This document shows positions 12,248 to 21,779 of a stretch of 45,953 nt of DNA, in pieces. Source of the stretch: a bacterium (GTDB lineage: Bacteria > Patescibacteriota > Patescibacteriia > SG8-24); the NCBI GenBank assembly GCA_023246225.1, contig JAHFIV010000004.1, forward strand, positions 1 to 45,953. The letters run 5' to 3'. Each line of letters opens with the position of its first letter. Position 1 is the stretch's first letter. Both the position numbers and the translations under genes were made by a program. The notes beneath the pieces were generated by a model, which had not been told where the DNA came from, ran no database searches, and saw only the letters and a program-made list of their open reading frames with translations.

Positions 12248-12523
12248 TTACGTGCGGCGTGGTCGTTTCAGCGGAACGATCGGACCGGTCTCCTGCACGT
12301 CGAGCTCGATCCCTTCGGCCGTTGCTTTTTTCCTGAATTCCTCGATCTTCGCTGCGATTCGAGGAGTGATCTTCAGAGGACGAAGAGCGAGCCTCGGTTT
12401 GCCACCCGCTTTTTCCGGAGCGCCGACGCCGGTCGCGGTGTTCGGGAGCTCGCGCACGATCCAGTTGCGGTGACGCGCTCTGAAATCTTTGATTTTCTCG
12501 ATATGGTCGTTGTCGTCGGACAA
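12248..12523 (-). CDS. Small hypothetical protein
   Basis: Predicted 91 aa from TTG at 12523, which follows AAAGGA at about 7 bases. The protein is highly charged: an acidic start (SDDNDHIEKIKDF), then a basic region with many Pro and Arg, ending LKRPRRT. There is no signal or membrane span and I recognise no domain. It lies in the reverse orientation inside the threonine gene cluster, between asd and thrB. Confidence 0.55.
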   Translation of the reverse strand: MSDDNDHIEKIKDFRARHRNWIVRELPNTATGVGAPEKAGGKPRLALRPLKITPRIAAKIEEFRKKATAEGIELDVQETGPIVPLKRPRRT

Positions 12524-12639: not shown

Positions 12640-13371
12640 TCAGCCGCGAGGCCAGATCGTGGCGAGCACGTCGGGGATGCGGCGCATCATCCGTTCGCGG
12701 GCGTTGCCCAAGAAGGCGGCGATGAACACGGGGTCGTTCAGGTTCGCATCGGATGCGATGATGCGTGCCTCGTCGACGTTCGGGAACTCGCGCTCGATCG
12801 CACTCTTGGTCTCGGTGACGAGCGTCTGCTCGTCGATGAGGCTTGCGATGAATCTCATCAGCTGTGCGCGGTGGGCGGTGGGGTCGGTCGTGCGTCGGCG
12901 GAACGCACAGCGCTGACTATCGTCCAGACCCGCGAGCGTCATGTCGTGGTCACGCACGAACATCGCGAGCATGTCCACCTCCGTTGCGAGCTCGTCGGCC
13001 GGCTCGATGCAGTACCGCGCGACCTGGGGAGTCCAGGCGCGTGCGAAGCTGAGCATCGACGCGCGCTCGGCGCGTAGATCGTGGTTGTGCGTCCAGCTCT
13101 TGTTTCCCCAGAACACCAGGGAGGCGACGAGCGGGGCGAGGATGATCTCGGCGTCGGTCGCGGTGAGCGACGGACCGTCGACCCCAGGCTTCTTGTTGGT
13201 CGCAATCACTGCGACAGCGTTCGTGAATGCGGCGCGCGCCGCCTTGATCGTCGAGACGACTTCGGGCTTCTGTTCGACGCCGCGCGGGGTGCGGAGCGCT
13301 AAGCACTCGGTGAGCCGCCAGTCGATGACCTTCGAGAGCAGGTCGCGTCCCAGTCCAGTTCGCATGTTCAT
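12640..13371 (-). CDS. Hypothetical soluble protein, family not recognised
   Basis: Predicted 243 aa, ATG at 13371 with AAGGA 6 bases upstream. It looks alpha-helical and soluble, with no signal peptide or membrane segment and three Cys. It has the segments GNKSWTHNHDLRAE and VRDHDMTLAGLDDSQ, which do not match any family I know. It lies between asd and thrB on the opposite strand and shares its upstream region with thrB, where the 161-bp fold-back element sits. Confidence 0.6.
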   Translation of the reverse strand: MNMRTGLGRDLLSKVIDWRLTECLALRTPRGVEQKPEVVSTIKAARAAFTNAVAVIATNKKPGVDGPSLTATDAEIILAPLVASLVFWGNKSWTHNHDLRAERASMLSFARAWTPQVARYCIEPADELATEVDMLAMFVRDHDMTLAGLDDSQRCAFRRRTTDPTAHRAQLMRFIASLIDEQTLVTETKSAIEREFPNVDEARIIASDANLNDPVFIAAFLGNARERMMRRIPDVLATIWPRG

Positions 13372-13412
13372 TGTCGATCCTTTCGTTGGTGCCTTGTTGG
13401 CGTGCTATCCTA

Positions 13413-13573
13413 AGAGTCTAGTTCAAGAATCCTTCTCGTCCGTATGATCAAAAATAGTGGCCTAGAATTGCAAAACGCTTGTTGCGATACTCCCAGTATC
13501 GCGCCGCACGTTTTGCAATTCTATTCTCACAATTTTTGCCATACGGTCAGAGAATTATTTTGAACTAGACTCT
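13413..13573. repeat. 161-bp long imperfect inverted repeat (fold-back element)
   Basis: The arms pair almost end to end: a 14-bp outer stem AGAGTCTAGTTCAA (13413-13426) with TTGAACTAGACTCT (13560-13573); then CCGTATG and CAAAAAT with their complements near 13531-13546; a stem AGAATTGCAAAACG (13464-13477) with CGTTTTGCAATTCT (13508-13521); and at the tip GCGATACT / AGTATCGC (13484-13491, 13495-13502) around CCC. It fills the space between divergent genes. It could be a MITE-like element or a large regulatory structure. Confidence 0.9.
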
Positions 13574-13584
13574 ATCATATCTTT

Positions 13585-14520
13585 ATGCGCTCGTCAATGT
13601 TCGCTGCAGCATCGGCTCCCGCAACCGTCGCAAACGTCGGTCCGGGTTTTGATGTGTTTGGGTTTGCGCTCGAGGGACCTTGCGATCATGTGCAGGTGCG
13701 ACGTGTTTCCACACCCGGTGTGCGACTTGTCGGTGCGGTTGATCCGACGTTACCGCGCGTGGTCACGAAAAATGTTGCGACAGCGGTCGCGCTTCGGATG
13801 CTCCGTGCGGTGAACGCGCGATTCGGTGTTGAAGTCACGCTCACAAAAGGTCTTCCGCTCGGCAGCGGACTCGGCTCGTCATCTGCATCGGCAGTCGCTG
13901 CTACAGTTGCGATGCATCGCTTGCTCGGCGAACGATTCACCGACGATGAACTGCTCGACTTCGCGCGGTTCGGCGAAAAAGTTGCGTGCGGTGCGGCGCA
14001 TGCAGACAACGTTGCGCCGGCGCTTTTCGGTGGGTTTACTTTGGTGCGCGGAGGATCTCCTGTGGAAATTATTCGCATCGATGTTCCAAAAAATTGGCGC
14101 GTTGTCGTTGTGCATCCGCACCTCGAACTTCCTACAAAAAAAGCGCGCGCTGCGCTTCCTCTCTCCGTCGCACTGAGAACGATGACTGCAAACGTCGCAA
14201 ACGCCGCGTCGCTCATCGCCGCATTGTACAAAAAAGATCTCGCGCTTTTTGGTCGCGCACTCATGGGTGATGCGATCGTGACGCCGGTGCGCAAACGATT
14301 GATTCCCGGATGTGACGTGGCGATGCGTGCAGCGATCCAGGCTGGCGCTGCGGGAGTGTCTATCTCTGGCGCCGGTCCTTCAATTTTTGCATTGACTGAT
14401 TCCGATGCACATGCAAAGCTCGTCGCACGGAGAATCGCTGCGGTGTGGCGTCGACATGGCATAAAAACCGATGTTTTTGTGAGTCGTATCGGCGCACGCG
14501 GCGCACTTCAGAGGAGGTAA
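13585..14520 (+). CDS. thrB: Homoserine kinase (GHMP family)
   Basis: Predicted 311 aa. It phosphorylates homoserine using ATP. It has the GHMP N-terminal SAPATVANVGPGFDVFGFAL, the ATP loop GLPLGSGLGSSSASA, and the C-terminal GVSISGAGPSIFAL motif of homoserine kinases. No Shine-Dalgarno precedes the ATG. TATCAT (13573-13578) sits 6 bases before the start, suggesting a leaderless transcript that begins at the edge of the fold-back element. Its end contains the AGGAGG that starts thrC. Confidence 0.93.
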   Translation: MRSSMFAAASAPATVANVGPGFDVFGFALEGPCDHVQVRRVSTPGVRLVGAVDPTLPRVVTKNVATAVALRMLRAVNARFGVEVTLTKGLPLGSGLGSSSASAVAATVAMHRLLGERFTDDELLDFARFGEKVACGAAHADNVAPALFGGFTLVRGGSPVEIIRIDVPKNWRVVVVHPHLELPTKKARAALPLSVALRTMTANVANAASLIAALYKKDLALFGRALMGDAIVTPVRKRLIPGCDVAMRAAIQAGAAGVSISGAGPSIFALTDSDAHAKLVARRIAAVWRRHGIKTDVFVSRIGARGALQRR

Positions 14521-21645: not shown

Positions 21646-21779
21646 CTGTCATTCCGGCCTACCTTTTTGTCATTCCGGCCTCCGAGCCGGAATCCAGAAA
21701 CGTAAAAATAGACCGAACGGAAATCGTTCGGTCTATTTATTTTTCTGGGTCCTGAATCAAGTTCAGGATGACAAAGATG
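21646..21779. repeat. Composite palindromic repeat, copy 2
   Basis: Left arm GTCATTCCGGC-ctccga-GCCGGAATCCAG; inner stem AGACCGAACG / CGTTCGGTCT with AAAAAT and ATTTATTTTT flanks; right arm CTGGG-[TCCTGAA tcaag TTCAGGA]-TGACA. It lies between the convergent stops of cobO and the reverse-strand gene that ends at 21784, and can terminate both. Confidence 0.85.

Follow-up and report, generated by a model that had tools for sequence, protein, structure and literature searches.

Bacterial non-autonomous transposable elements (MITEs) are usually confined to narrow lineages, with little conserved past their ends. Several small mobile repeats have been described in detail in other bacteria. ERIC (RU-1, 127 bp) and YPAL (RU-2, 168 bp) are mobile intergenic repeats of enterobacteria whose RNA folds, and the effects of ERIC on transcripts depend on its orientation (PMC2229807, PMC10969869); YPAL lacks TA termini and carries its inverted repeats internally (PMC2229807). 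In Streptococcus pneumoniae, RUP is a 107-bp MITE with insertion sequence-like ends that inserts at TA and whose ends match IS630-Spn1 (PMC2229807). The RPE of Rickettsia are palindromic mobile elements that can lie within genes (PMC2229807, PMC10969869), and REPs have a length of 20-40 bp (PMC3733652).

The present study concerns a 161-bp fold-back in front of thrB in a 45,953-nucleotide stretch of DNA (the window; contig JAHFIV010000004.1, assembly GCA_023246225.1) from a member of the Patescibacteriota. Our main reading, to which we give a probability of roughly 0.85, is that it is a MITE forming a hairpin from end to end and belonging to a class-wide family of ~157-161 bp. The family resembles ERIC and YPAL in being small, intergenic and RNA-folding, but differs from them in its hosts and from YPAL in having terminal, IS5-type terminal inverted repeats (TIRs). 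Like RUP, it comprises MITEs with insertion sequence-like ends that probably insert at TA, whereas its ends are of the IS5 type and its core covaries across the class. RPE are noted for inserting in frame into protein genes, whereas the surveyed copies of the family were intergenic or in an RNA gene. There is also a likeness to REP and CGTC-tagged repeats, as a pyrimidine loop of the family often holds CGTC beside a small hairpin, although TIRs, TA duplication and the ~160-bp length separate it from REPs. The family differs from ERIC, RUP and YPAL, as these have been described, in its ends and length. In comparison with IS5-family insertion sequences and the MITEs derived from them, the TIR GAACCTATCTCAAAAAT and the TA duplication are shared with an insertion sequence of one genome of the class (G149), but the elements lack a transposase, have a fully palindromic core whose structure is conserved in its own right, and differ in their ends between lineages. 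No report on MITEs or palindromic elements in CPR/Patescibacteria was found in the literature accessible without subscription, and this self-folding family of ~160 bp is apparently undescribed.

The fold-back in front of thrB

The interval folds back on itself nearly end to end, with a predicted energy of -52.6 kcal/mol as DNA (z -13.5) and -83 kcal/mol as RNA (z -12.05), and 0 of 200 shuffles was as stable. The near-complete fold-back, the 14-bp outer arms and the three-base tip described in the earlier note were thus all recovered; the inner arms are interrupted, and positions 13440-13491 pair with 13495-13546 around the tip (Table 1). The element, hereafter copy A, takes up 161 of the 213 bp that separate a divergent 243-aa ORF from thrB and, as oriented by the core model described below, lies on the sense strand relative to thrB. 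With regard to transcription, the hexamer TATCAT was located as previously noted (13573-13578, 6 nt upstream of the thrB ATG at 13585). The accompanying proposal that the element may provide the thrB promoter gained no support, as a consensus scan found no thrB-directed sigma-70 promoter there and returned a single site, on the minus strand and near chance level.

At 161 bp, copy A is too small for a transposase ORF and is thus not an autonomous IS5-family element with a DDE transposase; it is short, has a 14-bp perfect TIR and lacks transposase coding capacity, as a MITE does. For the edges, a TA occurs directly to the left, and the TA on the right (13573-13574) overlaps the final base of the TIR, which leaves copy A without a clean TA target duplication. 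The direct repeat CTATC, previously noticed at both edges, is indeed present there, but is not supported as a target duplication, that of the family being TA. Copy A had no match among 72,556 plasmid records. The exact tip pattern matched twice in the database of genome contigs, close to the chance expectation for 19 bases, and 0 times in that of viral contigs. In Rfam, the matches of copy A and its family stayed below the gathering score and were to unrelated microRNA hairpins; the only matches above it were to an RNase P RNA and a tRNA that surround or adjoin elements.

Table 1. Features in and around the fold-back in front of thrB (positions in the window)
Feature	Position	Strand	Basis or remark
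Copy A of the fold-back MITE, both TIRs included	13413..13573	+	Folding, second copy, core-model match
Left TIR AGAGTCTAGTTCAA	13413..13426	+	Variant of the IS5-type end GAGCCTATCTCA of copy B
Right TIR	13560..13573	-	14/14 complementary to left TIR
Structured core, three-base tip 13492-13494	13430..13555	+	Covariance model R1, 46.7 bits
TA, left edge of copy A	13411..13412	.	TA flanks most other exact-TIR copies
91-aa orphan ORF within the asd-thrB stretch of 1.37 kb	12248..12523	-	
Orphan ORF, 243 aa, divergent neighbour of copy A	12640..13371	-	No Pfam match; absent from 94 relatives
thrB (homoserine kinase)	13585..14520	+	Start codon 11 nt past copy A

A second copy, its empty site and the thr locus

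A search of the genome and its relatives, proposed in the earlier note, brought further copies to light at both levels. The only other copy in the host genome (G000; 1.12 Mb, 72 contigs) was copy B (G000:C35:7527-7687), which is 88% identical to copy A and has different flanks. Its site is the spacer, in the S10 operon, between two genes that we take from their translations to be rpsJ and rplC, and both copies are sense to their downstream gene. The ends of copy B are the exact IS5-type TIR GAGCCTATCTCA, and neither copy has a clean TA duplication. Comparison of the two copies over 66 pairs revealed 57 unchanged, five changed on both sides with pairing kept, one changed on one side with pairing kept, and three broken.

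Relatives from the host family have a long, structured rpsJ-rplC spacer from which the element is absent. After removal of the 160 bp of copy B, the 383-nt spacer of G000 aligned with those of G003, G006, G008 and G004 across the junction, which lies shortly past a conserved GGAAAACCTCCG stretch; the insertion-free site that had been called for was thereby found for copy B in four relatives. The spacer itself (~300-750 nt) carries the motifs CGGAGAAAGATCC...GGAAAACCTCCG family-wide (L069 958-1500, homologues L070-L078), as well as a terminator-like GGCTAGAAGTT...AACTTCTGGCTTTTC hairpin. It had no match in Rfam and is a candidate ribosomal-protein leader. As a separate observation, the 13-mer TGAATCAAGTTCA within the palindrome TCCTGAATCAAGTTCAGGATGAC occurs 23 times in G000 (window 21753-21765 and 22 others; reversed control 0) and is a separate repeat family.

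For the thr locus, hom, asd and thrB are contiguous in G008 and G020, where asd and thrB are spaced by ~40 and ~3 nt and the element is absent, so the earlier suggestion of a split thr operon is right, but copy A is only one part of the gap. This gap measures 1.37 kb in G000 and also contains two minus-strand ORFs without Pfam match, the larger of which (243 aa) had no homologue among 94 relatives. The position of copy A just upstream of thrB, in sense orientation, would also suit a thr-specific regulatory RNA or attenuator. Such a role is, however, very improbable, given that copy B sits in a ribosomal protein operon, that thrB in G008 and G020 directly follows asd with no element conserved upstream of it, and that the family is found in many other contexts.

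Ends, length and insertion sequences across the class

Copy B in BLAST searches over the class gave weak matches of ~25 bp, most of them chance-like, and two led to the family; the entry was a match in G067, from another family of the class, which is a 161-bp fold-back with similar ends. The end consensus GARYCYATCTCARAAAT was present in 12 of 381 class genomes (reversed control 0/381). Paired ends lay 157-160 bp apart in G086, G363, G349, G311, G121, G013 and G000, and element length is nearly fixed family-wide, at 157-161 bp. Outside G000, nearly all paired-end copies had TA on both sides, with the exception of G121, and G086 harbored three near-identical, TA-flanked copies at different sites.

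The same ends (GAACCTATCTCAAAAAT) bound a complete 844-bp insertion sequence with TA duplication in G149 (L197 1501-2344), whose transposase lies in two frames and matches Pfam DUF4096 and DDE_Tnp_1 and, in NCBIfam, the IS5 family (transpos_IS5_3). The TIR is thus shared, via the copy B-type ends, with an autonomous insertion sequence in a different genome, and on this likeness of ends the 844-bp element is likely the kind of source from which the transposase would come. No PF13340 transposase was found in G000, G067 or G311. In addition, the right end of a G311 copy shares an identical 24-nt stretch with the end of an IS5-family element carried by plasmids of Leptospira weilii. Another IS5-family insertion sequence with GAACCTATCTCAAAAAT, one end of it exact, was observed in G104 (L198 from 1181), which belongs to the same family of the class as G149. 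In the viral contigs, the TIR pattern gave 28 matches, none forming ~160-bp pairs and two being copies of the Leptospira-type insertion sequence, and the core-motif pattern gave none.

With two copies in G000, up to nine scored elsewhere and an empty site for copy B, the element shows the dispersal of a MITE, and comparison of sequences establishes its mobility and family membership. The earlier idea of a MITE-like insertion is accordingly upheld by the second copy, the empty site in relatives, the IS5-type TIRs, the TA duplications in relatives and the multi-genome family. Shared ends and TA targets further suggest that an IS5-type transposase moves the element, in that it would recognise the terminal repeats and carry the element into TA sites. 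Shorter fold-backs of ~47-72 bp with the same end type were also observed (L158 1033-1090 in G172, L155 2868-2939 in G235, L153 1005-1051 in G311). Two of these closely precede tuf and an L14-like gene, and all are possible deletion forms of the family.

A covarying core beneath changing ends

Nine elements, none of them from G000 and each represented by its inner 123 positions without TIRs, served to build a covariance model (R1), which scored copy A at 46.7 bits and copy B at 50.2 bits. On 130 kb of loci, all matches with E <0.04 were elements or their reverse strands. As true members also score 35-49 bits on their reverse strands, the R1 score alone is weak proof for the two copies, and it is their ends, length and fold that complete the case. 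At E 0.01 per genome, where ~4 genomes would be expected by chance, R1 matched 65 of the 381 class genomes, from 60 of 291 genera; the copies of G000 were not among the nine candidates scored per genome, and the 65 genomes are therefore a lower bound. Many of the matched genomes carry at least 5-9 copies among these nine candidates.

In a sequence-only MAFFT alignment of 54 cores, 30 of 30 consensus pairs showed compensatory changes, and 87.8% of cells were paired compared with 59.8% in shuffles. The covariation score was 0.702, against 0.215 for shuffles and at most 0.194 for slid partners; related copies inflate such scores, but both the margin and the contrast with the slide control are large. 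Two mismatched internal loops are kept within the helix, namely GGCTGCA opposite TTTTCGCTC (28/54 each) and a pyrimidine loop of CTCGTC opposite CCTCCTC, whose motif is absent from copies A and B. A small antisense-strand ORF seen in some cores was rejected because, by eye, it was not conserved.

Matched arms could also result from template switching between the arms of a palindrome during replication, with no selection on structure, which would yield the paired changes that distinguish copy A from copy B as well as covariation in general. The same mismatched loops nevertheless persist unrepaired across many families, and the pyrimidine loop retains a single pair among its mismatches, G opposite C in 39 cores and swapped to C opposite G in eight, leaving this explanation improbable.

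The internal loops are conserved while the TIRs vary. Elements matched by the model share their cores and differ in their ends (GAGCCTATCTCA, AGACCTCTTGCA, AGAGCCTGTTTATAATC, GAGCCTATCCCAACAGG, AGAGACCTCTGCAAAAG and others), and the tie to an IS5-family element was seen only for the GAGCCTATCTCA type; the varying ends have either co-evolved with different transposases or been exchanged. This combination is relevant to the main rival, in which the hairpin acts as DNA: extruded or single-stranded, it would aid the pairing of ends by the transposase or be recognised itself, and its mismatches would prevent the cutting seen with perfect hairpins. A palindrome that includes the TIRs, a length held nearly constant at 157-161 bp and a covarying core common to elements with different ends are all consistent with such a role. 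By contrast, the gene-relative strand bias described below is not expected from DNA structure alone, and we know of no need for a hairpin in IS5-type transposition, so that we regard a role of this kind as unlikely.

Position of copies relative to genes

All 37 surveyed copies lay outside ORFs. The G067 copy (161 bp, L154 997-1157) is inserted in a hairpin loop of RNase P RNA, in a helix that we take to be P9 by comparison with E. coli, and the RNA still matches RF00010 (class A) over its full length. Other copies lie 5 nt past tRNA-Leu and ~13 nt past tRNA-Val, and several occupy precisely the interval from a stop to a start codon. With copies oriented by the core, 30 of 137 had a start codon no more than 12 nt from their 3' end, compared with seven that had one equally close to the 5' end (p 0.0002), an asymmetry that held when counted by genome (18 vs 5, p 0.011). 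Between co-directional neighbours, the sense strand prevailed by 51 to 30 (p 0.026). In 17 of the 30 start-codon cases, an AGG-type motif from the element end was in range; thrB is among the 30, but without such a motif. The genes neighbouring family copies are unrelated to each other.

Strand bias and conserved loops together suggest a role for the structure at the RNA level, in tolerance or in expression. One form of this would be a core that is primarily a functional cis-regulatory RNA (a leader, an attenuator or a translational control), kept for regulating the downstream gene, with the transposon ends as its vehicle. Strong covariation with conserved internal loops, a conserved core between variable ends, and the sense-strand bias with start codons at the 3' end all point in this direction. 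It is nonetheless doubtful, considering that the neighbouring genes are unrelated, that many antisense copies remain (51 vs 30), that no Rfam family fits, and that copies occur behind tRNAs and within RNase P RNA. The large regulatory RNA or DNA structure that the earlier note had raised as an alternative to insertion is likewise partly right, in that the core covaries strongly and has conserved internal loops.

The family thus consists of structured fold-back MITEs, probably tolerated for their self-folding RNA. The RNA of the element would form, on its own, a helix interrupted by conserved mismatches and leave the host transcript usable, and for this reason copies would survive mostly between genes. 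When a copy lies in sense, its end closest to the following gene may often supply an AGG-type ribosome-binding motif just ahead of the start codon, by which the downstream gene would remain translatable; copy A has this sense orientation, 11 nt before the thrB ATG, but lacks the AGG-type motif. More tentatively, and at less than even odds, the family may be a mobile one with a conserved, strand-specific RNA payload, hitchhiking on locally recognised IS5-type ends and settling in sense between cistrons, where the RNA and the end-encoded ribosome-binding motif keep or tune downstream expression.

Compared with the usual bacterial MITE, the family stands out by a core that covaries across no fewer than 60 of the 291 genera sampled from the class, by ends that change and by a strand bias at start codons. 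It makes testable the selection of a mobile element for harmless or useful folding in host transcripts, and it accounts for long hairpins of these organisms, in leaders, at operon junctions and even in an RNase P RNA, that would otherwise be taken for regulators.
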